Position numbers and translations under genes: made by a program
Source: Bradyrhizobium guangzhouense
GTDB taxonomy: Bacteria; Pseudomonadota; Alphaproteobacteria; Rhizobiales; Xanthobacteraceae
DNA: 64,000 nt
Direction of reading: 5' to 3'
Assembly (NCBI RefSeq): GCF_004114955.1
Contig: NZ_CP030053.1
Coordinates: forward strand, 2,170,001 to 2,234,000
Notes under the pieces: generated by a model
Database searches by the model: none
Seen by the model: the letters and a program-made list of their open reading frames with translations, nothing else
Told to the model about the DNA's origin: nothing
Part shown: piece after piece, positions 1 to 14,563 of the stretch
Numbering within the stretch: the first letter of the stretch is position 1
Layout: each line of letters begins with the position of its first letter

Positions 1-1
1 C

Positions 2-823
2 GACTACACCTCGGTCTCGCGGCTGAAGCTCTGTCAGATCGAAGTCAGCCAGCATCGCATCGCGCACACGCTCGCGCGCGCCAAGGCCAACGAGCACCCG
101 TACATCAAGATTCATTTCCAGACCTATGGCGTGTCCTACTTCGAACAGGAAGGCCGCCACATCGAGCTGAATCCGGGCGACATCATCGCCTATGACGTCT
201 CCTGTCCTCACTCGATCATCAGCCCTGCTTTCACACGCCATGACGTGGTGATCGTGCCGAAGGCCCTGCTGCGCGATCGTGGCTTCCCGTCACAGCGCAT
301 GCCGGCCTGCAAGCTCTCGGCAAAGATCGGAACGGGGCGAATCGCCCACGACTTCGTCCATGCCACGTTCGACGAGGCGGCGAAGCTGTCGGCCAACAGC
401 GCGGTCGGTGTTGCCGATTCGCTGATCGACCTGCTGCTGCTGCCGCTGCGCGAAGCCGACACGATGTTCGATCGGGTCGGGCCCGAGGCGATGTACGTGC
501 GTGCCCAATTCTTCATCCGCGAACATTTGCGCGATCCGGATCTGTGCATCGACCAGATCTCCGCCGAGCTCGGCTGCTCCAAGCGTTATCTGCACATGCT
601 GTTCTCGGAGCGCGGCACCACGGTGAGCGACTACATCTGGCAGGCACGCCTGCAGAATTGCCGGCAGGAACTTGAGGCTCACGGCGGCAAGACCATCACC
701 GATGTCGCATTCTCCTGGGGCTTCTCCAGCTCATCGCATTTCAGCCGCGTATTCCGGAAATATTTCGGCGTGGTGCCGTCCTCGATCCACAAGGCACAGC
801 AGGGCGCGGTGGACGAAACCTAG
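2..823 (+). CDS. AraC-family transcriptional regulator (5' end outside window)
   Basis: The reading frame is open from the left edge, so the true start lies upstream and only the C-terminal 273 or so residues are visible. The N-terminal part looks like the cupin-like sensor half of AraC regulators with an AraC-binding-like domain (NPGDIIAYD, then a run of beta-strand-like sequence). The last 100 residues form a double helix-turn-helix: DQISAELGCSKRYLHMLF is the first recognition unit and DVAFSWGFSSSSHFSRVFRK the second, the usual AraC signature. It ends 14 bases before the convergent stop of the next gene. Its target is unknown. It is near the PQQ dehydrogenase genes but separated from them by a convergent gene, so a regulatory link is only a possibility. 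Confidence 0.9.
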   Translation, partial: DYTSVSRLKLCQIEVSQHRIAHTLARAKANEHPYIKIHFQTYGVSYFEQEGRHIELNPGDIIAYDVSCPHSIISPAFTRHDVVIVPKALLRDRGFPSQRMPACKLSAKIGTGRIAHDFVHATFDEAAKLSANSAVGVADSLIDLLLLPLREADTMFDRVGPEAMYVRAQFFIREHLRDPDLCIDQISAELGCSKRYLHMLFSERGTTVSDYIWQARLQNCRQELEAHGGKTITDVAFSWGFSSSSHFSRVFRKYFGVVPSSIHKAQQGAVDET

Positions 824-836
824 GCGGGTCTGCTGC

Positions 837-1262
837 TTAACTCGAGGTAGCTACGTAGGGAATGCTGGTCACGAGCGCCGCGACCAGCGTTGCGTTGCAG
901 AGCATGCCGCTCCAATGCAGTTGACGTAGTCGACGAACGGCATCGGGATCGCCGGCATCCCTGGCGCTGAGCTCGTCGTCCATCCGTCGCATGAACCAGC
1001 CGCGCCCCCGGATCGCGAGGGTCGCGATCAAGCCGATGCCCATGGCAAACAGCGGCCGACCAGCGACGAGGAAAGCCACGGTCGCAAGGACACCGGTCAC
1101 GGCAATCATTCGGAATTGGATGTTGAACATCCCGCGCAGCAACTGCGTGACGGGCGGAATGTCGAGCTTCACCAGCAGGAATGCGGGCGAGGCCAGCAGG
1201 AAATAGCCCATCGGAAAGAGCAGGATGACCAGGGCGGCGATGGCGACGGCATCGGGTTTCAT
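837..1262 (-). CDS. Hypothetical integral membrane protein
   Basis: A 141-residue protein not recognised as a named family. It starts with a long hydrophobic stretch (residues about 6-33), followed by two further hydrophobic segments around 50-68 and 70-86, then a charged soluble region (RRMDDELSARDAGDPDAVRRL) and a last hydrophobic segment near residues 118-137. Three or four membrane helices are likely. ATG start at 1262. It stands alone, convergent with the AraC-type regulator and about 300 bases from the next gene on the same strand. Codon use and GC look like the neighbours. No function can be given. Confidence 0.7.
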   Translation of the reverse strand: MKPDAVAIAALVILLFPMGYFLLASPAFLLVKLDIPPVTQLLRGMFNIQFRMIAVTGVLATVAFLVAGRPLFAMGIGLIATLAIRGRGWFMRRMDDELSARDAGDPDAVRRLRQLHWSGMLCNATLVAALVTSIPYVATSS

Positions 1263-1415
1263 GCGCTCGGCCTTTCTTGCCCGGAGCAGAGAGGGGCGCC
1301 CGGCGACAGCGCGTGATCATAGCCGGCCAATGTGCTTGTGACACCAGGCTTTGTCGGATGCGCAGGGGCAAGCCGCCTGACTTCGGTGCGCGAGCTGACA
1401 TCTTGCCTCACTCAC

Positions 1416-1518
1416 GCTGTCATCGCCCGGCTTGACCGGGCGATCAGTACTCCGAGGCGGCAGGGATTGACCCGACAGGCCGCGGCGTACTGGATGCCCC
1501 GCCTACGCGGGGCATGAC
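1416..1518. repeat. Dispersed palindromic intergenic repeat, copy 1
   Basis: This segment matches 51554-51659 over about 100 bases. Shared parts are a left hairpin (ATCGCCCG...CGGGCGAT), a spacer ending in GCCGCGGCGTACTGGAT, and a right hairpin (GCCCCGCCTACGCGGGGC, followed by ATGAC). Each copy is flanked by non-coding DNA. The two-hairpin layout is typical of rhizobial intergenic palindromic elements. It fills the gap between the membrane-protein gene and the binding-protein gene at 1559; nothing else is evident in 1263-1558. Confidence 0.8.
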
Positions 1519-1558
1519 ACGGGAGAGCGGCGCTGCATGGCGCCTCTGCATGACGTCC

Positions 1559-2509
1559 TCACCGCTGAATGATCTTCGTCCAGACATCGCCGAGGATCGC
1601 GGGCTCGCGCGGCGGCAGATAGGTGAGGCCGGCCTGCTTGCCGAATTCGGCGATCCTGCCCTCGGCGGCTAGATCCGTCAGCGCCGTGTTGACGCCCTCG
1701 ATCAAGGCGGGATCGCCGTCGAGCCCGACATAGCCGCGATTGGCGCCGATCGGATAATAATAGCCGGAGGCGGTGATGGCGGTGTCAGGATGCGCGGCGC
1801 GATGGGCGTCGTAGCGGGCAAGGTCGATCAGGGTCGCGTCATAATCGCCACGATTGAGCGCGCCCAGGAGGTCGTCGCGGCCGGGAACGAGATGGGTGAT
1901 ATTGTCGATCAGCTTTCCCTTGTCGAACGTCATGAGGATGGCGTCGCCGAGAGAGCCGCTTTCGATCGCGAGGCGAAGCCCGGCGAGATCGCCGATATCG
2001 GCAACCTTGCGCTCGCGCGCCTTCGGCCCAAGGACCACCGTCATCGGCGAATAAACGTAAGGCTTGGTCGGCGCCAGCACGCCGAGTGCGACGCGGCGGC
2101 GATGGTCGTCACGCGTGGCGCCGGAGAAATCCGGCAGGCGCGCCGTCTTCATGCCGGGCTTGACCAGCGCATCCGTCGTCAACGCGTAGCCGCCGACGAG
2201 TGAGCAGCGGCCGTCGGACAGCAACGCATTGGCCTCGAGCTGCGGGCTCGAATCCTCATCCAGCTTGCTCTCGAACCATTGGATCCTGAGCTGCCGCCCC
2301 ATCCGCTCCGCGATCGCCTGCGCCAGCAGCACGTCGAAGCCCGAATCCGGCTTGCCCTTGCGATGCGCCGAGAGCGGCGGGCGATCCTCGTCGAGACAGA
2401 TGGCGAGGGGTTCGGCCGCCCAGGCTGGCGTCCAAGCCGCTGTCCAGGCCGCCGTCGCCGGAGTTGCGAGCATCGTCAGCAGCGCGAGCGCCGCAAGCCG
2501 GTCCCTCAT
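1559..2509 (-). CDS. Quinoprotein-associated periplasmic substrate-binding protein (SBP family 3)
   Basis: A 316-residue exported protein with an N-terminal signal peptide (MRDRLAALALLTMLATPATA and on to about residue 31). The mature part has the layout of family-3 solute-binding proteins: an early ICLDEDRPPLSAH segment, SGFDVLLAQAIAERMG, a middle GLRLAIESGS segment and a late GDYDATLIDLARYD segment. No matching permease or ATPase is adjacent. Instead it is last in a three-gene set after a PQQ dehydrogenase and a cytochrome c, which is the xoxF-xoxG-xoxJ order of lanthanide methanol dehydrogenase operons. Its start overlaps the cytochrome stop (ATGA, 2506-2509), so the two are translationally coupled. 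By analogy with MxaJ/XoxJ it may help maturation or activation of the dehydrogenase. A more canonical MxaJ/XoxJ relative lies at 15730, so this one is the divergent copy. Confidence 0.75.
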   Translation of the reverse strand: MRDRLAALALLTMLATPATAAWTAAWTPAWAAEPLAICLDEDRPPLSAHRKGKPDSGFDVLLAQAIAERMGRQLRIQWFESKLDEDSSPQLEANALLSDGRCSLVGGYALTTDALVKPGMKTARLPDFSGATRDDHRRRVALGVLAPTKPYVYSPMTVVLGPKARERKVADIGDLAGLRLAIESGSLGDAILMTFDKGKLIDNITHLVPGRDDLLGALNRGDYDATLIDLARYDAHRAAHPDTAITASGYYYPIGANRGYVGLDGDPALIEGVNTALTDLAAEGRIAEFGKQAGLTYLPPREPAILGDVWTKIIQR

Positions 2510-2859
2510 GGCTTCCTCCGGCTCGAGATGAAGGCCCAGAGATCGCCGATGTCATCGTCGTTCAGGATATCGCCCCAGGGCGGCATCCTGTTGTTCTTGC
2601 CGTTCTTCACGGTGGTGACGAAGCGCGTCTTGTCATCAGGGAAGGCGCGCAGATCAGGCGTGATGGTGCCGGAGTTCATCAAATTGGGGCCGTGGCAGTG
2701 CGAGCATTTTTCGGCATAGGTCGACTTGCCGTGGTCGATCTGCGCCTGCAGCGGATTGCCGTTCGAATCATCCGCGGCACGAACGGTCGCCGCAAGCGCG
2801 ACCGTCAGCACCGCGACGGTGGCGAGGATCGCCACCGTCTTGTGAGATATGTGCCTCAA
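2506..2859 (-). CDS. Periplasmic c-type cytochrome, likely electron acceptor of the PQQ dehydrogenase
   Basis: A 117-residue protein with an N-terminal signal segment (residues about 7-29) and one haem-binding motif CSHCH at residues 52-56. A downstream Met at about 92 in the NRMPPWG segment is the likely sixth haem ligand. It is shorter than typical XoxG/MxaG cytochromes. The start is a TTG at 2859, 12 bases after the dehydrogenase stop; a GTG at 2835 is an alternative. It overlaps the next gene by four bases. Position directly after a PQQ dehydrogenase argues that it takes electrons from that enzyme, the XoxG role. The motif is seen; the partner is inferred. Confidence 0.85.
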   Translation of the reverse strand: MRHISHKTVAILATVAVLTVALAATVRAADDSNGNPLQAQIDHGKSTYAEKCSHCHGPNLMNSGTITPDLRAFPDDKTRFVTTVKNGKNNRMPPWGDILNDDDIGDLWAFISSRRKP

Positions 2860-2871
2860 AATGTCTCGCCG

Positions 2872-4536
2872 TTACTGCTTCACCGCAAAGACCCACAGCG
2901 AGCCGCCGGGCGGCACCTTGGCCAGCCGTTCGTCGCCGGAGAACAGCGAGTAGACGCCGCCGTAGCCAGACGTGACGGCGACATATTGCACGCCGTCCTG
3001 CTGCCAGGTCACCGGCTGTCCCTCGATGCCGGAGCCGGTCTGGAACTGCCAGAGCTTCTTGCCGGTGTCGGCATCGAAGGCCTCGAACTCGCCGGTCAGC
3101 GCACCCGTGAACACGACGCCGCCCGCCGTCGACAGCACGCCGGAGAAGCGCGGAATGTCGCTGGCCGCCTCCCACTTCGCCTTGCCGGTCATCGGATCGA
3201 TCGCCTTCAGATGGCCGCGCGCACCGTCACCCCACTCCCAGGGATCGGTCAGGTCCATGCCGAGATACCATTCACCCTGCTTGAAGGTGACGGGCTCCGA
3301 CTTGTACTTGCCGCCGAAGGCGAGCGTGTTGGCGTAGGCAAGGCCCGTCTGCGGGTTGAACGACATCGGCTCCCAGTTCTTGCCGCCGAGGATCGACGGA
3401 TAGACGGTGACCTTCTTGCCGTCGCGAGCATCCTTGACGACGTCGGTCTCGATCGGCTTGCCCGTCTTCAGGTCGACGCCGGTCGCCCAATTCACCTTCA
3501 CGTAAGGATTGGCGGCGAGCAACTTCCCGTTGGTGCGGTCGAGCACGTAGAAGAAGCCGTTGCGGTTGGCGTCCATCAGCACCTTGGTCGGCTTGCCCTC
3601 GACATTCATGTCGGCGAGGACCATCTCGGCCACCGCGTCATAGTCGAACGGATTGTTCGGCGAGAACTGGTAGTGCCACTTGATCTTGCCGGTCTTGGGA
3701 TCCATCGCCAGCACGGAGCAAGTGTAGAGATTGTCGCCGGGACGCACGGCCGCGTTGAACGGGCCGGGATTGCCGATGCCCCAATACACGGTGTTCAGCT
3801 CGGGATCATAGGACCCCGTGATCCAGGTCGAGCCGCCGCCGAGCTTCCAGGTGTCGCCCTTCCAGGTGTCGCCGCCGGGCTCGTCCGGCGAGGGGATCGA
3901 GTGGGTGCGCCAGAGGTGCTTGCCCGTTGCCGGATCCCAGCCGTCGATGAAGCCGCGGGTGCCGAATTCGGCACCGGAAATGCCGGTGATGACGACGCCG
4001 TCGGCGACCAGCGGAGCGACCGTCATCGAGTAGCCTTCCTTGATGTCGGCCGCCTTCTGTCGCCACAGCTCCTTGCCGTCCTTGATGTCGATTGCAATCA
4101 CGTTGGCATCGAGCGTGGTGCGGAACAGCTTGCCGTCGAACAGTGCGCCGCCGCGGTTGATGATGCCGCAGCAGACGATGCGCGGGGTCTCTGCCGGATA
4201 TTCGATCTTGGATTTCCAGATCTGCTTGCCGGTCTTGGCGTCCACCGCCATGGTCGCGTTGTGAGAGGTCACGTAGATCACGCCCTGATACACCAGCGGC
4301 TGCGATTCCTCGCTGCGATCGTCGTTGAGGGAGTAGTTCCAGACCGGGACGAGATTCTTGATCGTATCCCTGTTGATCTGGTTCAGCGTCGAGAAGCGCT
4401 GAAGATTGTAGCCCATGCCGTAGTTGAGAACGTTCGACGTATCGGTTGCGCCCTTGACCAGTTGATCGGTCGTCTGTGCGCTCGCAACCGAGCATGCGGA
4501 TATGACGAGGCTCGCGGCCATCGCAAAGCGTTTCAT
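2872..4536 (-). CDS. PQQ-dependent alcohol dehydrogenase, lanthanide-type signature
   Basis: A 554-residue exported quinoprotein of the methanol/ethanol dehydrogenase family, with a signal peptide ending near residue 20 (SACSVASAQ). Repeated tryptophan-docking segments (AVDAKTGKQIWKSKIE, AIDIKDGKELWRQ, DADTGKKLWQF) show the eight-bladed propeller. Adjacent cysteines at 122-123 give the vicinal disulfide that stacks on PQQ. Metal-site residues are present: Glu190 in SGAEFG, Asn256 in GIGNPGP and catalytic Asp298. Asp300, two residues after the catalytic Asp (Asp-Tyr-Asp), is the extra ligand found in lanthanide-dependent XoxF/ExaF enzymes and absent from calcium-dependent MxaF. At 554 residues it is shorter than typical XoxF (about 600), so it may belong to another lanthanide clade and the alcohol substrate is open. 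It heads an operon with cytochrome and binding-protein genes and is divergent from a lanmodulin-like gene. Confidence 0.9.
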   Translation of the reverse strand: MKRFAMAASLVISACSVASAQTTDQLVKGATDTSNVLNYGMGYNLQRFSTLNQINRDTIKNLVPVWNYSLNDDRSEESQPLVYQGVIYVTSHNATMAVDAKTGKQIWKSKIEYPAETPRIVCCGIINRGGALFDGKLFRTTLDANVIAIDIKDGKELWRQKAADIKEGYSMTVAPLVADGVVITGISGAEFGTRGFIDGWDPATGKHLWRTHSIPSPDEPGGDTWKGDTWKLGGGSTWITGSYDPELNTVYWGIGNPGPFNAAVRPGDNLYTCSVLAMDPKTGKIKWHYQFSPNNPFDYDAVAEMVLADMNVEGKPTKVLMDANRNGFFYVLDRTNGKLLAANPYVKVNWATGVDLKTGKPIETDVVKDARDGKKVTVYPSILGGKNWEPMSFNPQTGLAYANTLAFGGKYKSEPVTFKQGEWYLGMDLTDPWEWGDGARGHLKAIDPMTGKAKWEAASDIPRFSGVLSTAGGVVFTGALTGEFEAFDADTGKKLWQFQTGSGIEGQPVTWQQDGVQYVAVTSGYGGVYSLFSGDERLAKVPPGGSLWVFAVKQ

Positions 4537-4874
4537 CCGTTCCTCCCAATATGCGCGCCTTTTGACGCTGCGATCGCAACACTCTGTCGGAAAGCAAAAC
4601 AGGTCAATACGAAAGTCGAAAGCACGCTACCGATATGTTGGATTCCAGACGCGGTCACCTGGAGGAAACTGACGAACAAACTCCGACTTGCGCGCAGACG
4701 CTGAAAAAATTCCGCGGCATGATGCAAGGCCTGCGATGAGCGGTCGCCTGGACAGTCCCGGTTCTGCCGGTTGTGCAGTGCGCACGTTGCAATTGCGGAC
4801 TTGAACTGCGGCCGTCTTGCCGACTTATGTTGTCGCGAGCCCGGCGAATCGGGCCCTTGGTCAGGGAGGTCAGA
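4537..4874. promoter_or_regulatory. Divergent intergenic region between the PQQ dehydrogenase and lanmodulin-like genes
   Basis: These 338 bases hold the upstream regions of both genes. A good ribosome binding site (AGGGAGG, about 4863-4869) precedes the lanmodulin-like ATG at 4875 and supports that start over an earlier in-frame start at 4773. I could not assign promoters with confidence. No clear palindromic operator was seen. No other gene is evident here. Confidence 0.5.
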
Positions 4875-5267
4875 ATGATATCGCGTCGCTCAGTTGCACT
4901 TGCGCTCACGCTCACTGCGCTGTCCGGTCCGGCCTGGTCGGCCTCCGGCACCGCCGTCAAAATGTTCGACACCGACAATGACGGCACGCTCGATCTGGCC
5001 GAGGTGAAGAAGGCCGCAGCCGCGCTGTTCGCCAAGCTCGATCCGGACCATGATGGCACGCTCGATGTACGCGAACTGCGCGGACGGTTAACGGCGAAAG
5101 AACTCGCCGCCGCGGACCCCGATCACGACGGCACGCTGACGCTCGATGAATATCTCGCCGTTGTGGAGCAGCGCTTCAATGCGGCGAATCCCGACAAGGA
5201 CGGCACGCTCGACGCCAAGGAGCTGCATTCGCGTGCAGGTCGCGCATTGCTGCAATTGTTGCGCTGA
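4875..5267 (+). CDS. lanM: Lanmodulin-like periplasmic lanthanide-binding EF-hand protein
   Basis: A 130-residue exported protein; signal peptide to about residue 22 (WSAS). Four 12-residue EF loops lie at 32-43, 56-67, 81-92 and 105-116, separated by only 12, 13 and 12 residues. Ordinary EF-hand pairs have about 25. This close spacing and a proline at loop position 2 in EF2-EF4 are hallmarks of lanmodulin, the picomolar lanthanide binder of Methylorubrum. EF4 begins with Asn, as in the Methylorubrum protein, and the C-terminus after EF4 (ELHSRAGRALLQLLR) also resembles it. Departures: EF1 has Thr at position 2, EF3 has Thr at position 9, and EF2 and EF3 carry His at position 4. Start chosen at 4875 because of the strong ribosome binding site and clean signal peptide. 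Divergence from a lanthanide-type PQQ dehydrogenase supports a role in lanthanide binding. Biochemistry is inferred. Confidence 0.88.
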   Translation: MISRRSVALALTLTALSGPAWSASGTAVKMFDTDNDGTLDLAEVKKAAAALFAKLDPDHDGTLDVRELRGRLTAKELAAADPDHDGTLTLDEYLAVVEQRFNAANPDKDGTLDAKELHSRAGRALLQLLR

Positions 5268-5438
5268 GGTCGTCAGCGCTTGACTGGGAGCGAAGACGAT
5301 TTGCCCGAGAGTGAAATTTGCGCGTGTTATTCGATACTTCGCGGTGTTTGCGGTCCGATTCCAGACTTGCGCTGTGCTTGAGGCAGCCCTAGGTTTTGCC
5401 CGGCGCGATGTCGCGCTCAATACTTGGGGAGACCCCGA

Positions 5439-5519
5439 ATGGCCTGGAAAGCTCCGAAGATCGTCGAAGTGCCGGTCGGCATGGAAATCAACATGTACGC
5501 CTGCGCAGCGCGCAAGTAA
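5439..5519 (+). CDS. pqqA: PqqA, precursor peptide of pyrroloquinoline quinone
   Basis: A 26-residue peptide starting MAWKAPKIVEV and ending in MYACAARK. It contains the invariant Glu-x-x-x-Tyr pair of PqqA (Glu16 and Tyr20), the residues crosslinked by PqqE and trimmed into PQQ. A purine-rich ribosome binding site (GGGGAGA, 5426-5432) sits just upstream. A weak sigma-70-like pair (TTGCGC, 17 bases, TAGGTT) lies about 50-80 bases before the start. No pqqB, C, D or E gene is nearby, so this is an isolated copy between the lanmodulin-like gene and an RND pump. A stable hairpin follows 13 bases after the stop. The peptide is too small for usual gene finders, but the motif is clear. Confidence 0.9.
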   Translation: MAWKAPKIVEVPVGMEINMYACAARK

Positions 5520-5532
5520 GACTGACGACCTG

Positions 5533-5568
5533 CCACGGCTTCGATCGCAGATGCCCTCGAAGCCGTGG
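5533..5568 (+). terminator. Perfect 12-bp hairpin after pqqA
   Basis: CCACGGCTTCGA at 5533-5544 pairs exactly with TCGAAGCCGTGG at 5557-5568, leaving a 12-base loop. No T-run follows, so it may be a transcript-stabilising or attenuating structure rather than an intrinsic terminator. In many pqq operons pqqA is expressed far above the following genes, and such a hairpin would protect a short pqqA message. Confidence 0.6.
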
Positions 5569-5715
5569 TAGTGTCGGAATTGCGGTCGCGCCCCGTCATG
5601 TGGCTCGCGCCGACCTGCCATTCATGAAAAGCCACGTCTGATCGAGCTTGGGCTCGGTCCTCTCCCGCCAAATACGTCCTGCGTTTTCCGCGCTCCGCCT
5701 TTCGCCGGCACCCGG

Positions 5716-8700
5716 TCAGTGTGGCTGCGTTTGAAGCTGCGTATCGTCGTGCTTCTGCGCCCCATCGGGATGGTTCTTGAAACGCGCATATCGAAGCGCC
5801 AGGGTCGGCAGGACCAACAGACTAAGCGCCATCGACGTCATCAATCCTCCGAGGATGACGATCGCCATGGGTCCCTCGATTTCACGTCCGGGCTCTCCCG
5901 CGCCGATCGCGAGTGGCAGCAATCCCAGGCCTGTGACAAGGGACGTCATCAGAATCGGAACGAGGCGGTCAGCCGCGCCTTCGATCGCGGTATCGAGGTC
6001 CCAGACGCGACCATCGACCAGGACGAGATGTTCGTAGTGAGAGATGATGAGGATGGAGTTGCGCAGCGTGATCCCGAACAGCGTGACAAAGCCGACCATC
6101 GATCCGAGCGAAAGCAGGCCACCCGTCAGCGCCAAGGCGAACACTCCGCCGACGAAGGCAAATGGCAAGTTGATCATGACCAGCAACAGATTGCGCCAAT
6201 GGCCGGTGACCATGGCAAGGAGAATGATGATGCCCGTTCCGGCCAGCAGGAAGTTGACGATGAGATCGCGCCGAGACCGGGCCTGGGCCTCGGCGGCTCC
6301 GGCAAATTCGAGGCGGGCACCGGTCGGTAGCGTGACCTCACGAGCCAGTTTTCGTTTGGCGGCCGCCACGAAGGATTCGAGGTCGCGTCCGTTGACATTC
6401 GACGTGACCGTCTGAACGCGCTGCGCGTTCTGGTGCTGGATTTGATACCGTCCGGAGGTTTCGTAGACGTCGGCGATCTGCTTGAGCAGAATGTAGGCTC
6501 CGCTCGGCGTGCGCACCGGCAAGTCTCCGATCTGGGTGAGCCGCGCTCGGACATGCGCATCGAGAATCACGATCACATTGAAGACGGCATTGCCTTCGTA
6601 TCCCTGTCCGACGATGTCGCCCTGATAGGCCGTGCGCACCAGCTCGAGCACCTCGACCGCATCGAGCCCCCAACGTTGCAGATCGGTCGGGCGAAGCGTC
6701 ACATTGACCTGCGGCATGCCCGGCGGAGTTCGCCGCTGCACGTCGGCCGCGCCGCCGACCTCGTCGAGTTCGCGCGCGACGTCGCGCGCGGCGCGGTCGA
6801 GTGAGTCGAGATCAGGCCCATAGATGTTGATGACGACAGCTGCGCTGAAGCCAGAGACGGTCTCTTCCACGCGCTCCGTCAGATAGGTCTTGCTGGAGAA
6901 AGAAATTCCCGGGAAGTCGGCCAGAGCTGCCCTGATGCGTGCTTCGGCTTCGGATTGCTGCCGGCCCGAGAGCTCCGGTTCCAGATCGACCTCAAACTCG
7001 CTGGAGTGCGGACCAACGGTGTCGATGCCGGCCTCGGCCCGTCCTGCATGCTGCGCGACCCTGCGGATGCCGGGGATATGTTGCAGCGCGTCCGTCATCA
7101 GTTTCCCGATGCGAAGGGATTCGTCGAGCGAGGTCCCGGGAATCGCCGAGACGTGCAAGATCAGATGGCCTTCACGCAGATCCGGCAGGAAGGTTCCGCC
7201 GAAGAAGGGCAACATCGCTGCGCCGGCGATCGTGATAGCCGCGGCGGCCGCCATCACGAGCTTCGGAAAACGGCCGATATGACGCAGCAGGGCCTGGTAA
7301 TGGCGACGCGACCATCGCACCGCAGGCGGTTCATGCAGGCGCTCCGTGTTGCTTCTGCCGACGAGGAGCAGCATGGAGAGCGCCGGCGTCACCGTGAGGG
7401 CGACCGCGAGCGAGGCGATCACGGCGAGGATGTAAGCGATACCCAGGGGGGCGAACAGGCGGCCGGCAATGCCGGAAAGGGCCAAAACCGGAAAGAAGAC
7501 CAGCAACACCGCAAACGTCGCATAAGCGACCGCGGTGCGCACCTCGAGGAAGGCGTCGAGCACGACGCGAGGCTCGGGCCTCGGCACTGTCGCCCGACGA
7601 TTTTCGCGCAACCGGCGCACGACGTTTTCGACACCGATGACGGCATCATCGACGACCTCGCCGATCGCGATCGCGAGGCCGCCCAGAGTCATCGTGTTCA
7701 GAGTCTCGCCCATCCATTGCAACGCGAGTACGGCCGCTATCAATGACAGGGGGATAGCAGTGCAACTGATGATCGAGGTGCGCCAGTCGAACAAGAAGAG
7801 AAAAAGGACGACGACGACCAGCGCCCCGCCGATCAACAGGGCGTTGAGGACGTTCTTCGTTGCGGCGTCGATGAAGCTGGCGGGACGAAATATGTCCGCA
7901 TATAGCTTGACGTTGTCGGCCTCGAGGCCGGGACGCAGCTCCTGCAGCGCGGCTTCGGCGCGCGTGGTGATCTCTCGTGTATTCGCGCCATATTGCTGGC
8001 TGACCATGAGCATGATGCCAGGTGCGCCGTCAATGAGGGCGGCGCCGATCGGCGGTTCGGGAGCGGTTACGACAGTGGCGACGTCGCCGAGGACGACGCT
8101 GGCGCCGCCTTCGTGCAGAAGGACGGTGCGGGCAAGTTGGTCGGGCGTCAGTGACTGGCCCTGGGTTTGCAGCGTGATGCGCTGATTGGCGGTGTCGATG
8201 AACCCGGCGCCGCGCACGCCTGTGGCCTTACGCGCGGCGGCCAGCACATCGTTCATGCCGACGCGAAAGCGGATCAGGTCATCCGGACGGACCTGAACCT
8301 GCAAAGACCTGACGTCCTTGCCGTAAGTCGAGACTTGCGCCACGCCCGGCACGGCCAGCAGCCGTCGTGCCACGGTCCAGTCCGCGATGGTGCGCAGATC
8401 CATCAGCGATCGCTTGTCGGACGTCAAGCCGATGACCAGTACCGTGCCGGCAAGTGGGGTCAATGGCGTCATCGACGGCGGTTGAACGCCTTGCGGCAGT
8501 CGCGCGGCGACGACCGCGAGACGTTCCGTCACCAATTGTCGCGCCCGGTAGATATCGCTGCGCGGCTGGAAGACGACGGTTACGACCGAGAGGCCCTGGA
8601 TCGATGACGACCGCAGACTCTCGACGCCGGCCAGGCCGTTGATCGAAGTCTCGATCGGCTGCGTGACCAGGATCTCGACGTGCTCCGGGCTGAGGCCGGG

Positions 8701-8895
8701 AGCTTCGGTTTGTATCGTCACCTGAGGTGGGGCGAATTCGGGAAAGACCCCGTATTTGGCTTCGCCGATCGCGAACAAGCCGTAGCCCAGCAGAGCAAAG
8801 GAAAGCGCCAGCACGATGCCTCGGAAGCGGATGGCGAATGCGACGAGAGCGGCTTGCGGCCCCGACCTGCCGGAGCCGATGTCATCAGTCGTCAT
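5716..8895 (-). CDS. RND efflux pump inner-membrane subunit, heavy-metal (CusA/CzcA) type
   Basis: A protein of about 1059 residues with RND architecture: a first membrane helix near the N-terminus (GIVLALSFALLGYGLFAIGE), the family segment FPEFAPPQVTIQTEAPGLSP, a first periplasmic loop, membrane helices 2-6, a second large loop and helices 7-12 (GMVTGH and FVTLFGITLRNSILIISHYEHL regions). The helix-4 segment reads AIGEVVDDAVIGVENVVRRL. It keeps the acidic pair and Glu-Asn of metal RNDs but has Ala where CzcA has its first Asp, as in CusA. The start at 8895 (MTTDDIGS) overlaps the adaptor stop by 11 bases and avoids a low-quality upstream extension. It forms an operon with the adaptor at 8885-9949. 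No outer-membrane factor is adjacent. The substrate is probably a metal ion; which one is not shown. Confidence 0.88.
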   Translation of the reverse strand: MTTDDIGSGRSGPQAALVAFAIRFRGIVLALSFALLGYGLFAIGEAKYGVFPEFAPPQVTIQTEAPGLSPEHVEILVTQPIETSINGLAGVESLRSSSIQGLSVVTVVFQPRSDIYRARQLVTERLAVVAARLPQGVQPPSMTPLTPLAGTVLVIGLTSDKRSLMDLRTIADWTVARRLLAVPGVAQVSTYGKDVRSLQVQVRPDDLIRFRVGMNDVLAAARKATGVRGAGFIDTANQRITLQTQGQSLTPDQLARTVLLHEGGASVVLGDVATVVTAPEPPIGAALIDGAPGIMLMVSQQYGANTREITTRAEAALQELRPGLEADNVKLYADIFRPASFIDAATKNVLNALLIGGALVVVVLFLFLFDWRTSIISCTAIPLSLIAAVLALQWMGETLNTMTLGGLAIAIGEVVDDAVIGVENVVRRLRENRRATVPRPEPRVVLDAFLEVRTAVAYATFAVLLVFFPVLALSGIAGRLFAPLGIAYILAVIASLAVALTVTPALSMLLLVGRSNTERLHEPPAVRWSRRHYQALLRHIGRFPKLVMAAAAAITIAGAAMLPFFGGTFLPDLREGHLILHVSAIPGTSLDESLRIGKLMTDALQHIPGIRRVAQHAGRAEAGIDTVGPHSSEFEVDLEPELSGRQQSEAEARIRAALADFPGISFSSKTYLTERVEETVSGFSAAVVINIYGPDLDSLDRAARDVARELDEVGGAADVQRRTPPGMPQVNVTLRPTDLQRWGLDAVEVLELVRTAYQGDIVGQGYEGNAVFNVIVILDAHVRARLTQIGDLPVRTPSGAYILLKQIADVYETSGRYQIQHQNAQRVQTVTSNVNGRDLESFVAAAKRKLAREVTLPTGARLEFAGAAEAQARSRRDLIVNFLLAGTGIIILLAMVTGHWRNLLLVMINLPFAFVGGVFALALTGGLLSLGSMVGFVTLFGITLRNSILIISHYEHLVLVDGRVWDLDTAIEGAADRLVPILMTSLVTGLGLLPLAIGAGEPGREIEGPMAIVILGGLMTSMALSLLVLPTLALRYARFKNHPDGAQKHDDTQLQTQPH

Positions 8896-9949
8896 CGCCG
8901 CCCCGAAGCTCGCTCTTGGCCTCCTCGGACAACAGGACCTGCGCTCCGCGCATGACGATTTCGGATCCGGATGGAATGTCTCGGACGACATAGTCGTCGT
9001 CCGAGACCGGCTGATCCATGCTGATCGGGTGCCGCCGGAAGCTGTCGGGGCTCACGCGCAGGTAAACCCACGATCGCCCCTGCCATCGCACGATCGCGGT
9101 GTCCTCGATGAACACACCCTCATAGGTGTTACCTGACGGCACATAGACAGTGGTGTTCATGCCCGGCAGCAGGCCGCTGTCCCCCGGCACGGAGAAGAAA
9201 TAGCTCAATCCCTGAATACGAGGGTCGGTGCGCGTTGCCGGAGAGATGTACTGGAGATCGATATTGGCATTCCGCGTCGGTGCCTGCGCCAGAGCCGTTC
9301 CCGGAGTGCCGGTGACGGTCACGCCGGGCGGCAGTGTCACCTGAACCAGCAACTGGTCGCGCTCGATCAGTTTGACAACGGCAGGCGAGCGCTCGACGAT
9401 TCCCCGGCCGATGACCGGCCCCCATTCCTGCTGTGCCGTTGCGGTGAGAGTTCTGAGCTGCGATTCCGCGCCGGCCAGTGCGGCCTTGTCGACGCGTAAC
9501 GTTCCCTCCGCGGTCTCGGCTTCCTTCTTCGGAAGGGCGGCGGAGTCGACGAGATTCTTGGTGCGGTCGTATGCGCTCCTGGCGACTTCGAGCTTAGCCT
9601 GCGCTGTCTGGAGTTGAGCTTGCGCATTGGCGTAGTTGTTGGTGAGCTCCGTGATGCGGGAGATATCGAGCACGGCACCATAGGCGCGGAATTGCTCCGG
9701 ATGTGGCGCCGCTTCCAGGAGCGCGGTTTCGAGCCCAATCTGTGTTTGCTGGCTTGGCGTCAACTTGACCACGGGCTGGTCGCTGTCTGCAGTGCCGGAA
9801 GGCGCCGTGCGGGCAGAATTCGATTTGTCGGACGGCGTCTCGGCAGCAGCTCGCCGGACGTAACCCGTGACAGCCCAGGTGCTGGCCAAAAGCACCAGCA
9901 CGCAGACTGTGGCCGCGACGCCGCGGCGGGAGGTTTCCGTAAGAGCCAT
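8885..9949 (-). CDS. RND efflux periplasmic adaptor (membrane-fusion protein)
   Basis: A protein of about 354 residues. The start at 9949 gives MALTETSRRGV followed by one hydrophobic segment (AATVCVLVLLASTWAV), which fits an anchored or secreted adaptor. A barrel/lipoyl half (QFRAYGAVLDISRITEL) flanks a coiled-coil hairpin (NYANAQAQLQTAQAKLEVAR to AALAGAESQLRTL), followed by a beta-barrel part (LLPGMNTTVYVPSG) and a membrane-proximal part. The C-terminus is acidic (GGDDD). Longer in-frame starts up to 10231 would add about 94 residues of unlikely sequence. The pump gene overlaps its 3' end. The neighbouring lanthanide-related genes raise the possibility of metal efflux linked to that system, but this is inference from position only. 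Confidence 0.85.
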   Translation of the reverse strand: MALTETSRRGVAATVCVLVLLASTWAVTGYVRRAAAETPSDKSNSARTAPSGTADSDQPVVKLTPSQQTQIGLETALLEAAPHPEQFRAYGAVLDISRITELTNNYANAQAQLQTAQAKLEVARSAYDRTKNLVDSAALPKKEAETAEGTLRVDKAALAGAESQLRTLTATAQQEWGPVIGRGIVERSPAVVKLIERDQLLVQVTLPPGVTVTGTPGTALAQAPTRNANIDLQYISPATRTDPRIQGLSYFFSVPGDSGLLPGMNTTVYVPSGNTYEGVFIEDTAIVRWQGRSWVYLRVSPDSFRRHPISMDQPVSDDDYVVRDIPSGSEIVMRGAQVLLSEEAKSELRGGDDD

Positions 9950-10162
9950 CAGCCTGTTAGCAGTTGTCGGGAACCAGCTTATTGGCGAAATTGACAGGCG
10001 GCAAGGCACCGGCTGCACCTCTGTCACTTCGGGCAACCCAGGTGCGTATGGCGGCGAAGCCGTAACCGTTGCCTCGCATGGCTCGCGCCCATTTGAAACT
10101 TCTGACTGCCCAGGACGTAGGTTTTTATGGTAGTTTTCTTCGATCCCTGAAGGATTCTCGGC

Positions 10163-10372
10163 ATGAACCCGATCGATCTGGTGGTGACTGTGTGTGCGCT
10201 GCTCTCGCCCGCGACCTGCGAGGAGCAGCATCTGGTCTTCAACTTCGGCGGCTCACCGGCGCAATGCTCCATGGCCGCGCCGCCCTATATCGCGCAATGG
10301 ATCGGCGATCACCCGAAATGGCAGGCGGTGCGCTGGCGCTGCGAGTATCCGCATACGCATGACAAGGCGTGA
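10163..10372 (+). CDS. Small hypothetical protein, 69 residues
   Basis: A short protein with a hydrophobic N-terminus (PIDLVVTVCALL) and four cysteines (residues 11, 19, 35, 60), plus two Trp in the IAQWIGDHPKWQAVRW segment. A plausible ribosome binding site (GAAGGA) precedes the ATG. The cysteine pattern suggests an exported disulfide-containing peptide, although the N-terminus is a poor signal peptide. It lies between the divergent adaptor gene and a convergent exported-protein gene. Not recognised as a named family. Confidence 0.6.
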   Translation: MNPIDLVVTVCALLSPATCEEQHLVFNFGGSPAQCSMAAPPYIAQWIGDHPKWQAVRWRCEYPHTHDKA

Positions 10373-10382
10373 TGCGCGAGCG

Positions 10383-10736
10383 CTACTTCGTGCACTCCTT
10401 CAAATCCTTGTCGGCGATCGAGAAAACTGCGTCCGCCTTGATCTCGATGTCGCGGACGATGCATTGCCGGGAATTGGGATAGCTGACCTTGGCATCATAA
10501 CGGCCGGGCTCGACGCCGGTGATGCGCAAGCGTTCGTCGTGGTCGACCTCCTTGTCCTTGTCGTTCAGGCACTGGTTCGGGCCCCAGTCAGTCTTGCCTG
10601 ATGGCGCGAGCTGGAAGCCGGAGATCGTCTCGCTGGTCAAATTCCAGAGCCTGACGCCCTTGCCCTTGGTCTGCGCAAGCGCCGCACCCGGCATCGCAAC
10701 CAAAAGGATGCCTGCCGCAATCAGCTGACGGCGCAT
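10383..10736 (-). CDS. Hypothetical exported protein
   Basis: About 117 residues from the ATG at 10736, with a clean signal peptide (RRQLIAAGILLVAMPGAALAQ). The mature protein contains VRLWNLTSETISGFQLAPSG and three cysteines (ending QCIVRDIEIKAD and KECTK). The phrase about tissue of secondary-structure strands such as LRITGVEPGRYDAKVSY suggests a small beta-sandwich. It follows the ABC ATPase gene by 47 bases on the same strand and may be the last gene of that transporter operon. Family not recognised. Confidence 0.7.
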   Translation of the reverse strand: MRRQLIAAGILLVAMPGAALAQTKGKGVRLWNLTSETISGFQLAPSGKTDWGPNQCLNDKDKEVDHDERLRITGVEPGRYDAKVSYPNSRQCIVRDIEIKADAVFSIADKDLKECTK

Positions 10737-10783
10737 GGTGACCTCCCCGACTTGTCTCATTGGACGTAATTGACCACGAGTTC

Positions 10784-11494
10784 TCATTTCGATTCAAGCA
10801 GCAAGGCCGCAAGCTCCGCCCTGATCCTGGCGAGCTCGACCTCGCTGCGCTCTGCGCGCGGAGTCAAGATCGGGACCTCCTGCACGATGCGTGCGGGGCG
10901 GGGCGACAGGAAGAACAGGCGGTCCCCGAGGCGGATGGCGTCGTCGAGACTATGGGTGACGAGCAGCGTCATCACGGGACGGCTTGCCACCAGCGTCGCG
11001 ATCTCGTCGCGCAGGCGGCCGGCGAGCGCATCGTCGAGCGAGGCGAGGGGCTCGTCGAGCACGAGCAGGTCGGGCTCGACCGCGAAGGCGCGCGCAAGCG
11101 CGACGCGGCGGGCGAGACCCAGCGACAATTCGCCGGGGAAATGGCTGCGGTGCGCCTCCAGCTCGAGGATCCTGAACAGCTCCGCCAGCTTGGCATCGGT
11201 GACATCAGGCGCAGCCAGCCGCACATTCTGCTCGACCGAGCGCCACGGTAGCAGCCGCGGCTCCTGGAACACCATGCCGATCCGCGCCTCCGGTGGGCGC
11301 GCGACGCGGCCGTCGAAGTCGCGGTCGAGTCCGAGGATGATGCGCAGCATCGTGCTCTTGCCGCAGCCGGACGGGCCGATGAGCACGCCAACTTCGCCGG
11401 ACTGCAGAGCGAATTTCAGTGGCGCCAGCACCTGGTGCGATCCGCCCGCAGCGCTCCGGTAGGTCTTGCCTGTGATCTCGACCTCAAGCCGCAC
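10784..11494 (-). CDS. ABC transporter ATP-binding protein (nitrate/sulfonate/taurine type)
   Basis: About 236 residues from a GTG at 11494. Walker A is GPSGCGKST, the Q-loop is MVFQEPRLLPWRSV, the signature region is ELSLGLARRVALARAF (LSLGL replaces the usual LSGGQ), Walker B is LLVLDEPLASLD, and the switch His is in LLVTHSLDDA. The start overlaps the permease stop by 11 bases. The RLLPW segment is typical of SsuB/TauB-like ATPases. It completes an importer with the permease and binding protein upstream. Confidence 0.9.
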   Translation of the reverse strand: MRLEVEITGKTYRSAAGGSHQVLAPLKFALQSGEVGVLIGPSGCGKSTMLRIILGLDRDFDGRVARPPEARIGMVFQEPRLLPWRSVEQNVRLAAPDVTDAKLAELFRILELEAHRSHFPGELSLGLARRVALARAFAVEPDLLVLDEPLASLDDALAGRLRDEIATLVASRPVMTLLVTHSLDDAIRLGDRLFFLSPRPARIVQEVPILTPRAERSEVELARIRAELAALLLESK

Positions 11495-12221
11495 GGGGCC
11501 GCCACCGCGTTGCACGGGCCTCGAACGGCTGCACCAGCGCCGTCTCGATGACGAGCACGACCGCGGCGAAGGTGAGAGAATAGGCGAGCAGGCGAGGCGT
11601 GTCGAACAGCTGGAAGGCGACGCCAATCTCGAAACCGACGCCGTTCGGCCGCCCCAAGAGTTCAGCGACCAGCACGATCTTCCACACCAGCGACAGGCCG
11701 GAGCGGGCGGAGGCCGCTATATAGGGTGCAAGCTGGGGCAGCACGACATGGCGGAACGCGCGCCAACGCGGCATCGCAAAGACGGTCGCCATCTCGTCGA
11801 GAGAACGGTCGAGCGCGCGCGTGCCCTCGCGCAAGGTGACGACCGCGGTCGGCAGCTTGTTGATGGCAATCGCGGCGATCGCTGCGGCCTCGGTGAGCCC
11901 CGCCCAGATATAGGCCAGCACGATCACCACCAGCGCTGGCAGATTGAGCAGCAGGATCAGCCAGGGATCGCCGAGCCGGTCGGCGAGCTTCACCCGTCCC
12001 ATCAGATAGCCGATGGCGCTGCCGAGCGACATCGCCAGCACGAAGGCGAGCGCGACGCGCGCAAGCGTGGCGCCGAGATGCAGGAACAGCGCGCCCGATG
12101 CTGCTTCCGCGATGATGACGTGGAGCACGACGGGCGGGGAGGGCAGTTTTGCACCGCCGACGAACAGCGCGGCCGTCCACCAGATCGCAAGCAACAGGGC
12201 AATCGAAAGAAGGCGCAGCAC
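11484..12221 (-). CDS. ABC transporter permease (SsuC/TauC-like)
   Basis: About 245 residues from a GTG at 12221, which lies two bases from the binding-protein stop. Hydrophobic segments begin at once (LLSIALLLAIWWTAALFV) and continue as five to six helices. The cytoplasmic EAA-like loop reads LDEMATVFAMPRWRAFRHVVLPQLAPYI, which is close to the SsuC/TauC consensus. Upstream in-frame starts add a polar segment unlike a permease N-terminus and were rejected. The substrate cannot be read from the sequence. Confidence 0.88.
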   Translation of the reverse strand: MLRLLSIALLLAIWWTAALFVGGAKLPSPPVVLHVIIAEAASGALFLHLGATLARVALAFVLAMSLGSAIGYLMGRVKLADRLGDPWLILLLNLPALVVIVLAYIWAGLTEAAAIAAIAINKLPTAVVTLREGTRALDRSLDEMATVFAMPRWRAFRHVVLPQLAPYIAASARSGLSLVWKIVLVAELLGRPNGVGFEIGVAFQLFDTPRLLAYSLTFAAVVLVIETALVQPFEARATRWRPRAA

Positions 12222-12222
12222 C

Positions 12223-13212
12223 TCAGTCTCCGGGCACGGCGTGATAGAAAGTGCCGGGATCGACCTCCGCCGCCGGTCCCACCAGATCGTGACCGCCAAT
12301 CTCGGCCAGCACGCGATAGAGCACGCGCGCATCCGCCTCCTCGTCATTGATGCTCCGGCGTGGAATGCCGTCGCGATAGCGGTCGCGGTATGTCTTCAGC
12401 ATGGCGGGATCGGCCGTGCCGGTGAGCGGGGCGATCTTGTCCCAGGCCGCGTCGGAGGTGACCAGAAGCTGCTTGGCCTTGCGGGTCATGGCGATGAAGC
12501 GCGCCACGGCGTCGCGATGGCTCGCGGCCCAGCTCTCATCGAAGACATAGCCGACGGCGGAGACCGCGCCCTTGGCGCCGAGTTTCGGCAGGATCTCCTC
12601 GATACCCGCAAGGCGCCTGAAGCCCTTGGCCTCGAGCTGGGCGCAGAAATTCCAGAAATTCAAGCTCGCATCCATCTCGCCGTCGAGCGCCTTAGCGGCG
12701 ATCAGAGGCGGCGCGCCATAGACGATGGTCGCATCCGACTTGAGGTCGATGCCGTCCTGCTTCATCCGTGCCTGCAGCAGCAGCCAGCTCTTGTCGATCG
12801 GGCCGCCGCCGACGCCGAGCTTGCGTCCCTTCAGATCGGCGAGCGTCTTGATCGGCGAGGATGCCGGCACCATCACCGCGCCGAGCGCGCTGGAATAGGG
12901 ATAGAAGGTCAGCTTGGCGCCGAGTGCACGCTCGCGAGACACCCAGAGCCAATCCGACAGCATGATGTCGGCATTGCCGGCGCGGAGCGCGATCTTGCCA
13001 GCCTCGGGGCTCGCAAGCTCGGTGACCTCCAGCGACAGATCGGCCTCCTTGTCGAGCCCGGCCTGGCGGATCGTCGCCAGTTCCCAGGAGAACGTTCCGG
13101 TCTTCTGCACCGCAAGGCGGATGGTGTCGGCGGCATGGGCCGGCGTGCCCACTGCCAGCAGCATCAGCAGCACTATTGTTCGTGCCAAATCTCTCATCAC
13201 CTTGTGAGCCAT
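12223..13212 (-). CDS. ABC transporter substrate-binding protein (NMT1/SsuA-like)
   Basis: About 329 residues from ATG 13212; an alternative ATG at 13197 has a better ribosome binding site (AAGGTG). The signal peptide (RTIVLLMLLAVGTPAHA) ends before ADTIRLAVQKTGTF. The mature part follows the SsuA/NMT1 plan: LRAGNADIMLSDWLW, then KTLADLKGRKLGVGGGPIDKS and GEMDASLNFWNFCAQLEAKG. Together with the overlapping permease and ATPase it forms a complete importer. Its position between quinoprotein accessory genes and the pump is suggestive, but SsuA-like proteins carry many different ligands (sulfonates, thiamine precursors, nitrate). Confidence 0.85.
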   Translation of the reverse strand: MAHKVMRDLARTIVLLMLLAVGTPAHAADTIRLAVQKTGTFSWELATIRQAGLDKEADLSLEVTELASPEAGKIALRAGNADIMLSDWLWVSRERALGAKLTFYPYSSALGAVMVPASSPIKTLADLKGRKLGVGGGPIDKSWLLLQARMKQDGIDLKSDATIVYGAPPLIAAKALDGEMDASLNFWNFCAQLEAKGFRRLAGIEEILPKLGAKGAVSAVGYVFDESWAASHRDAVARFIAMTRKAKQLLVTSDAAWDKIAPLTGTADPAMLKTYRDRYRDGIPRRSINDEEADARVLYRVLAEIGGHDLVGPAAEVDPGTFYHAVPGD

Positions 13213-13284
13213 TTCCCCGGACAGAGTGCTTTTCAGGACAATACGCATAGCATAGCTTCCATCGCAACCAGCGGGAGGACGCTC

Positions 13285-13644
13285 ATGAGTTTTGCGGGAC
13301 GGGTACGACCTGTTGTCGCCGTCGTGGTCGTGCTCGGAGCGAGCGCGTATGCGGCCAGGGCCGAGGAGGCCAATGATTATCCGACCTCGGCGCGCGCGGA
13401 GTATGTCTATGGCTGCATGAAAGCCAATGGCGAGACGCGGCAGGCGATCGAGCAATGCTCCTGCTCGATCGACGTGGTCGCCTCGATCGTGCCCTATGAA
13501 CGCTACGTCACTGCCGAGACCGCGCTCAGCATGTCCCAGGTTCGCGGCAATCTCGGCACCCAGTTCCGGACGTCCGAGCAGGCGAACGCGGCCGTGAATG
13601 ATCTGCGCCGGGCGCAGGCTGAGGCCGAGGTGAGATGTTTCTGA
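13285..13644 (+). CDS. Small exported cysteine-containing protein, possibly quinoprotein-associated
   Basis: A 119-residue protein from ATG 13285, preceded by GGGAGG. Signal peptide to about residue 25 (VVVLGASAYAARAEE). The mature part has four cysteines: one in VYGCMKANG, two in QCSCSIDVV and the last near the end (RCF). The layout CMKANGETRQAIEQCSCS suggests two disulfides in a small helical protein. It lies alone between the divergent SsuA-like gene and the convergent SoxYZ-like gene, inside the quinoprotein accessory block. No family was recognised with certainty. Confidence 0.75.
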   Translation: MSFAGRVRPVVAVVVVLGASAYAARAEEANDYPTSARAEYVYGCMKANGETRQAIEQCSCSIDVVASIVPYERYVTAETALSMSQVRGNLGTQFRTSEQANAAVNDLRRAQAEAEVRCF

Positions 13645-13652
13645 TTTAGCGC

Positions 13653-13736
13653 CCGTCATTCCGGGATGGTCCAAAGGACCAGACCCGTAATCTCGAGATT
13701 CCGGGTTCGATGCTTCGCATCGCCCCGGAATGACGG
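13653..13736. repeat. Composite palindromic intergenic repeat
   Basis: Outer arms CCGTCATTCCGGG (13653-13665) and CCCGGAATGACGG (13724-13736) pair perfectly. Inside lie two smaller hairpins: GGTCC-AAA-GGACC (13668-13680) and GATGCTTCGCATC (13710-13722). The element lies between two convergent genes and could end transcription in both directions. Sequences of this form are frequent between Bradyrhizobium genes. Confidence 0.75.
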
Positions 13737-13744
13737 CTTGACTA

Positions 13745-14563
13745 CTAAGTCCCAGACTTCTCCACGTCCCACTCGTTCCTGAACACGTGCCCGTCCGTGT
13801 CCTTGGCCTCCGCGCGGAATCGCTTCGCGCCGTTGGAGACATAGGTGAAGCGCAGGTTGGGATCTTCGGAGATCGAGATGCCGCCTTCCATCGACAGCAC
13901 GGGACTGTCGTCCTGGGTCAGCTTCAGCTGATTGATGAAAAAGGCGGGAATATAGAGCTGGGTCACCTGATCCATCTGCAGGCCGGAATTGTTGGGATGG
14001 CCGATCATGATCTGGGCTTCACGGATGCGGCTTGCCGGCGCATCCTCGCGCGCGAATTGCCGATAGCGCATCTGGCCGAGGTGGTTCTTGGCCTCCTCGG
14101 CGTTTTTCCCGGCTGGTGCCGAGCAGCCACCTGACGCCTTCACATAGGTCTTGGAGACATAGAGCTGGCCGTCGCTGAGCTCGGCGACCGCGTGTACGTC
14201 AGTGTAATTGTTGACGCGCACGCGCGTGGAGATTTCGCTGACATTGGCATCCGGCCCGAGATCGAACTTTGCTGCCATCGGCGCCGGGTTGCGGTCGATC
14301 ACCAGCGTGATCGAGCGGATGCGGCGGCTGTCTGCGGGCGACAGCTTGCTGCGCAGCGTCACAGGCACGATCGCCGCATCCTCGGCGCGATAGGGCATCT
14401 CGATCGCGATGACGTCGGTGCCGTCGTTCATCGGACGGTTGTTGAAGATGTCCTGCACCAGGCCGGGCCAGGGATCGTATGCCTCTTCGGCGCTGGCAGG
14501 TGCAGCAAAGGCGATGCCGAGCAGCGCGGCGATCAGGGTCAGGCGGCGTGTGCATCCCGTCAT
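13745..14563 (-). CDS. Quinoprotein dehydrogenase-associated SoxYZ-like carrier protein
   Basis: A 272-residue exported protein, signal peptide to about residue 25 (FAAPASAEE). The N-terminal half is SoxY-like and ends around KASGGCSAPAGKN, where Cys147 in a Gly-Gly-Cys setting corresponds to the carrier cysteine of SoxY. The C-terminal half (HPNNSGLQMDQVTQLYIPAF to the end) is SoxZ-like, with the beta-sandwich pattern ISISEDPNLRFTY. Such fusions occur in methylotroph and alcohol-oxidiser clusters together with a metallohydrolase and PQQ dehydrogenase, where they form a proposed relay system of unknown chemistry. It follows the metallohydrolase gene with a gap that holds a tandem repeat. Confidence 0.88.
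   Translation of the reverse strand: MTGCTRRLTLIAALLGIAFAAPASAEEAYDPWPGLVQDIFNNRPMNDGTDVIAIEMPYRAEDAAIVPVTLRSKLSPADSRRIRSITLVIDRNPAPMAAKFDLGPDANVSEISTRVRVNNYTDVHAVAELSDGQLYVSKTYVKASGGCSAPAGKNAEEAKNHLGQMRYRQFAREDAPASRIREAQIMIGHPNNSGLQMDQVTQLYIPAFFINQLKLTQDDSPVLSMEGGISISEDPNLRFTYVSNGAKRFRAEAKDTDGHVFRNEWDVEKSGT

Follow-up and report, generated by a model that had tools for sequence, protein, structure and literature searches.

A lanmodulin gene between a lanthanide-type alcohol dehydrogenase and a second pqqA in Bradyrhizobium guangzhouense

We analyzed a 64,000-nucleotide stretch of the Bradyrhizobium guangzhouense genome (NZ_CP030053.1, positions 2,170,001 to 2,234,000; hereafter the window) in which an intact plus-strand open reading frame, running from ATG to stop at 4875-5267, encodes a 130-residue lanmodulin (LanM). 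On one side, and read in the opposite direction, lies a gene for an alcohol dehydrogenase of the pyrroloquinoline quinone (PQQ) type. On the other side lies pqqA, a gene for the PQQ precursor peptide that was absent from the first-pass annotation of this DNA. The lanM gene is the sole match in the 8.14-Mb genome and sits on a 7.16-Mb contig, not on a plasmid. Features of the locus are collected in Table 1.

Table 1. Features at the lanM locus, in window coordinates
Feature	Position	Strand	Evidence or remark
AraC-type regulator, between xoxF5 and the lanM cluster; start precedes the window (L012:17789)	2..823	+	PF12833, PF14525
Periplasmic solute-binding-like protein	1559..2509	-	PF00497 3.6e-7; only weak PDB matches
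Small c-type cytochrome with a CSHCH haem site, encoded behind the dehydrogenase	2506..2859	-	PF13442 1.7e-15
PedH-like PQQ alcohol dehydrogenase, divergent from lanM	2872..4536	-	TIGR03075 698 bits; best PDB sequence match 6zcv 1.2e-133
Divergent intergenic region, 338 bp	4537..4874	.	Candidate shared control region
lanM, lanmodulin, 130 aa	4875..5267	+	NF053806, Mex-LanM match, fold match to 8fns
EF loop 1 DTDNDGTLDLAE, Thr at position 2	residues 32-43; 4968..5003	+	
EF loop 2 DPDHDGTLDVRE, His at position 4	residues 56-67; 5040..5075	+	
EF loop 3 DPDHDGTLTLDE, His at position 4, Thr at position 9	residues 81-92; 5115..5150	+	
EF loop 4 NPDKDGTLDAKE, Asn at position 1 as in Mex-LanM	residues 105-116; 5187..5222	+	
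Second pqqA, PQQ precursor peptide, 26 aa, EINMY core	5439..5519	+	PF08042 3.5e-10

Sequence and predicted fold assign the window protein to the lanmodulins, where it belongs to the Mex side. It scores 181.6 bits against the NCBI lanmodulin model NF053806, passing the equivalog cut-off of 135, and matches Mex-LanM with an E value of 1.2e-32. The predicted structure has the lanmodulin fold, a three-helix bundle with the metal sites at its edge. Specifically, it lies on Nd-bound Mex-LanM (8fns) with a root-mean-square deviation of 0.7 A, and its lanmodulin match scores far above those to other EF-hand chains. In a phylogenetic tree the protein falls on the Mex side, with the Hans group split off at 100/100 support. 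Residues ~1-23 resemble a signal peptide, as judged by eye. The profile search and the predicted fold thus uphold the first-pass annotation in naming a lanmodulin and not a calmodulin-like calcium EF-hand protein.

Within-genus comparisons draw on 81 loci, that is, the window plus 80 named loci that were the best 80 of 194, a choice favoring near relatives. Among these 80 nearest named loci, 79 carry the name Bradyrhizobium, which agrees with the earlier assignment of the DNA to that genus. One record, JAUEPE010000019.1 (L063), is titled Frankia sp. RB7 and carries a Bradyrhizobium lanM island; its label looks wrong. For the 57 of 81 lanM genes of exactly 130 codons, which align without gaps, the mean ratio of nonsynonymous to synonymous substitution rates (dN/dS) between the window gene and its 56 Bradyrhizobium orthologues was 0.087, and 0.058 over residues 25-130. 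The codon comparison indicates that lanM is under strong purifying selection. Together with family matches at E <= 1e-3 in 4398 of 5211 candidate proteins, a count that may include generic EF-hand proteins, this low dN/dS excludes a chance origin of the reading frame.

The four EF loops follow the lanmodulin plan. Adjacent loops are 12, 13, and 12 residues apart, and proline occupies position 2 of loops 2, 3, and 4. Mattocks 2023 (PMC10232371) recognizes a lanmodulin by loops 12-13 residues apart, at least one of them having proline at position 2, and gives ~25 residues as the calmodulin-like yardstick. This plan, including Asn at position 1 of the fourth loop, had been described in the first-pass annotation, as had the departures at position 2 of loop 1, position 4 of loops 2 and 3, and position 9 of loop 3; all are present, and the departures may, as it proposed, tune metal affinity or selectivity. 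Its description of two loops as altered holds in comparison with Mex-LanM, but not within Bradyrhizobium, where Thr2 in EF1 (65/77) and Thr9 in EF3 (76/77) are normal.

These loop counts cover 77 of the 81 loci, the window among them, namely those that fit a strict four-loop pattern (L064, L094, L112, and L118 were dropped). EF1 position 2 is otherwise Pro (12 loci). Position 4 of EF2 is His (65 loci), Arg (11), or Gln (1); position 4 of EF3 is Arg (45), His (30), Lys (1), or Gly (1); and EF4 position 1 is Asn (65) or Asp (12). EF3 position 9 is Ser in the one locus without Thr. For comparison outside the genus, 38 genomes of other genera had a match, and an order-level sample drew a single locus from 34 of them (G255, G391, G465, and G512 were left out). 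In the 23 of these 34 loci with readable loops, the residue at EF3 position 9 is mostly Asp (11) or Glu (10), with Thr and Asn once each. Because all 77 loci of the genus carry Thr or Ser where relatives outside it mostly carry Asp or Glu, Thr9/Ser9 in EF3 appears to be characteristic of Bradyrhizobium. Thr9 may be linked to engineered position-9 variants of lanmodulin; no such link was found in PMC11561317, and PMC10232371 goes no further than naming positions 1, 2, and 9 of Mex-LanM as important.

Behind lanM, on the same strand and beginning ~172 bp after it, is the second pqqA, a stand-alone gene. The core of PqqA is a Glu-x3-Tyr motif in a short peptide, and the EINMY of this product fits that core. 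The genome has one other pqqA, 425 kb away at 1.75 Mb, where it adjoins pqqB. In 81/81 loci, lanM has a pqqA behind it in the same orientation. In another search, which is not independent of this one, a pqqA pattern occurred <=1.5 kb from lanM in 29/29 loci of the genus. The gap between the two genes is <260 bp in 40 loci, 260-399 bp in 12, 400-759 bp in 26, and longer in 3. Folding of the gap as RNA gave a z score of -0.84, and an Rfam search over window positions 1-14000 gave no match at E <= 0.5. We found no description of a lanM-pqqA pairing in the excerpts examined from open PubMed Central papers. Two side observations concern this arrangement. In 28/81 loci the gap contains a small secreted-looking protein, which is 107-139 aa long and ends in DKGC in L092, L050, L051, L111, L123, and L056; it is absent from the window because the gap there is too short. 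Furthermore, in one locus outside the genus (L167 of genome G411), three tandem pqqA genes adjoin lanM, possibly an independent pairing of the two.

The divergent neighbor of lanM had been called a lanthanide-type PQQ dehydrogenase, and its residues sustain that view. Glu190, Asn256, Asp298, and the extra Asp300 make up the lanthanide-type ligand set, which is kept in 77/77 aligned orthologues, 55 of which read FDYDS. Its closest structure, 6zcv, is a quinoprotein ethanol dehydrogenase in the database description; we take it to be PedH. The gene is divergent from lanM in 77/81 loci. The genome encodes four PQQ dehydrogenases of soluble size, all with the Asp pair, a count that leaves aside a weak match at 2640260 and an 814-aa frame at 2938828 with the full PQQ profile, of membrane glucose type by length only. 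Among 146 same-genus genomes searched, 107 carry lanM; 97 have both lanM and the PedH-like gene, 10 lanM only, 7 the enzyme only, and 32 neither (Fisher p 7e-17, in a test that makes no correction for kinship and scores whether the genes are present, not whether they are adjacent). A second lanM match occurs in 6 of the 107 lanM-bearing genomes (G040, G056, G060, G081, G129, and G145). The two genes are ~18-19 kb apart in G040, G056, G081, and G129; in G056 and G081 (L174 and L173) the second has a further PQQ dehydrogenase ~1 kb away, which shares 40% identity with that of the window, and in G129 the second lanM contains 2 in-frame TGA codons.

A second lanthanide-type enzyme is encoded close by. 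The xoxF5 gene, on the minus strand, starts 0.65 kb before the window and 5.5 kb from the start of lanM. Its product scores 1068 bits against the XoxF structure 6oc5 and is plain XoxF5-like, where the clade number is assigned by likeness to M. extorquens XoxF1, not by a clade tree. We found xoxF5 in 106/107 lanM-bearing genomes and 31/39 without lanM, and a true xoxF5 (>=75% identity) within the flank of 61/80 loci, 1.5 to 7.8 kb from lanM. The 338-bp region between lanM and the dehydrogenase is a candidate shared control region; in the 66/81 loci aligned, conservation on the dehydrogenase side (4537-4640), which may hold a regulator site, is far above that on the lanM side. The small c-type cytochrome and the solute-binding-like protein each have a match at the same place in 77/81 loci, and the cytochrome is likely the electron acceptor. 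Directly beyond pqqA, at 5716-10231 on the minus strand, lie a CusA/CzcA-like resistance-nodulation-division efflux pump, below the model cut-off, and an adaptor-like gene. The pump was matched within the flank in 11/80 related loci and is therefore no fixed part of the island.

Sequence, predicted fold, and gene order together suggest that this LanM probably buffers lanthanide in the periplasm, or donates it, in cooperation with the nearby lanthanide-type dehydrogenases. Exported to the periplasm, LanM would bind light lanthanide ions at EF1-EF3 with a predicted very high affinity, would fold on binding them, and would buffer the metal or hand it on. The PedH-like enzyme and XoxF5 would thereby be loaded with lanthanide and not calcium, and the extra PqqA would help to supply the organic cofactor that these enzymes use. 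In this way the gene grouping would join metal, cofactor, enzyme, and electron acceptor. A more specific, joint proposal is one that we put forward tentatively and consider rather unlikely in full. It holds that a genus-wide LanM subfamily has changed position 9 of EF3 from Asp to Thr or Ser, which would alter second-sphere water and so the preference for, or release of, light lanthanides, and that LanM, its own pqqA, and the divergent PedH-like enzyme form a module that loads metal and cofactor into a lanthanide alcohol dehydrogenase distinct from XoxF.

Several observations count against the buffer or donor role. In the interval 4400-5720 we found 0 sigma-70-like promoters, with 0.4 expected, and 1 terminator-like site (5371-5387) versus 1.0 expected; because the 172-bp gap lacks a convincing promoter or terminator, lanM and pqqA may or may not share a transcript. 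Of the 34 loci outside the genus, where pqqA was sought by sequence pattern only, just 2 have the pattern <=7 kb from lanM. The xoxF5 gene is outside the flank in 19/80 loci, of which 14 have the full 8 kb and no edge piece, three have shortened flanks, and two have a short edge piece. Synteny within the genus could reflect inheritance rather than selection. Lanthanum did not upregulate lanM in M. extorquens AM1, in which pqqA genes went down with lanthanum (log2 -3.7 and -3.4), and pqqA also went down in RH AL1 with neodymium or a lanthanide cocktail. These published expression data do not favor a simple model in which lanM and pqqA are induced together. For Bradyrhizobium USDA 3456, a comparison of methanol with succinate, both with lanthanum, showed no rise of PQQ genes or of a predicted lanthanide transport cluster. 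Finally, lanM deletions in M. aquaticum 22A and M. extorquens PA1 caused no methanol-growth defect, which leaves a donor role unproven in the literature examined.

The intact methanol growth of these mutants also speaks for a rival explanation, in which LanM mainly stores, buffers, or detoxifies periplasmic lanthanide without delivering it to the neighboring dehydrogenase, the neighborhood then reflecting shared descent or a common signal. We regard this explanation as quite possible, though short of probable. It gains from the order-level loci outside the genus, only 3/34 of which have a PQQ dehydrogenase match <=7 kb from lanM (L172, L180, and L187), and from the 10 lanM-bearing genomes that lack the PedH-like gene. 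Yet it sits less easily with the strong co-occurrence of the two genes and their divergent pairing in 77/81 loci, bearing in mind that the genomes are not independent.

Two further explanations concern what the protein is. Many listed relatives are named calcium-binding protein or Ca2+-binding EF-hand protein, and Pfam assigns the window protein mainly to generic EF-hand families, as would suit a calcium binder that merely resembles lanmodulin. The equivalog score, the 12-13-12 spacing, the three prolines, and a fold match far above other EF-hand chains make this very improbable, and we rejected a calmodulin-like protein on the loop spacing, the lanmodulin model, and the fold. It is just as improbable that the protein is a dimerizing lanmodulin of the Hans type, which would discriminate light from heavy lanthanides through dimer formation. 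EF3 position 9 does depart from the Asp of Mex-LanM, as it does in Hans-LanM, where it is Glu. But position 9 of EF1, EF2, and EF3 reads Asp, Asp, and Thr, with Glu in no loop, and on this basis and the tree placement the Hans type was rejected. We retain the buffer or donor role as the preferred interpretation of a Mex-side lanmodulin.

The lanmodulin family and its Bradyrhizobium members are known, and lanM is an ordinary gene of the genus. Mattocks 2023 lists 696 putative lanmodulins (PMC10232371). The first-pass annotation had suggested that this copy would extend lanthanide biology to rhizobia; that claim was anticipated by published Bradyrhizobium lanmodulins (PMC10875860 and PMC12482762) and by lanthanide-dependent methanol growth of Bradyrhizobium (PMC12628762, whose main text does not contain the words lanM or lanmodulin). 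What is worth testing is the genus-wide gene grouping and the change in EF3. The cellular job of lanmodulin is unsettled, given the Methylobacterium/Methylorubrum deletions, and a genus in which lanM almost always stands beside a spare pqqA and one particular lanthanide-type dehydrogenase that is not XoxF offers a direct place to test delivery. Positions 1, 2, and 9 are important in Mex-LanM (PMC10232371), and Thr9 in EF3 provides a natural, ready variant for the last of these. In addition, Bradyrhizobium is an agricultural symbiont that meets both methanol and lanthanides at the root.

The window LanM has in common with Mex-LanM (6mi5 and 8fns) the four loops spaced 12-13-12, Pro2, Asn1 in EF4, and the C-terminal tail; it differs in Thr2 of EF1, Thr9 of EF3 (Asp in Mex-LanM), and His4 of EF2 and EF3. 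The M. extorquens gene lies in the lut transport cluster, whereas the window gene has a PQQ dehydrogenase gene and pqqA as its neighbors. The LanM of M. aquaticum 22A, whose shape changes with lanthanum, likewise has Thr2 in loop 1, but it has Lys at position 2 of loop 2 and another gene neighborhood (PMC9260416). With Hans-LanM (8dq2) the window protein shares fold and spacing, but it is without Glu9 and without Asn1 in loops 1-3. Within Bradyrhizobium, the copy reported from one genome has three EF hands with the proline and is not co-located with XoxF (PMC10875860), whereas xoxF5 is near the window gene, and the 15 copies of PMC12482762 are plasmid-borne, unlike this one. Among the neighbors, the solute-binding-like protein is placed like XoxJ of xoxFGJ, a likeness by position only, and the divergent dehydrogenase is nearest, by PDB score, to the presumed PedH.
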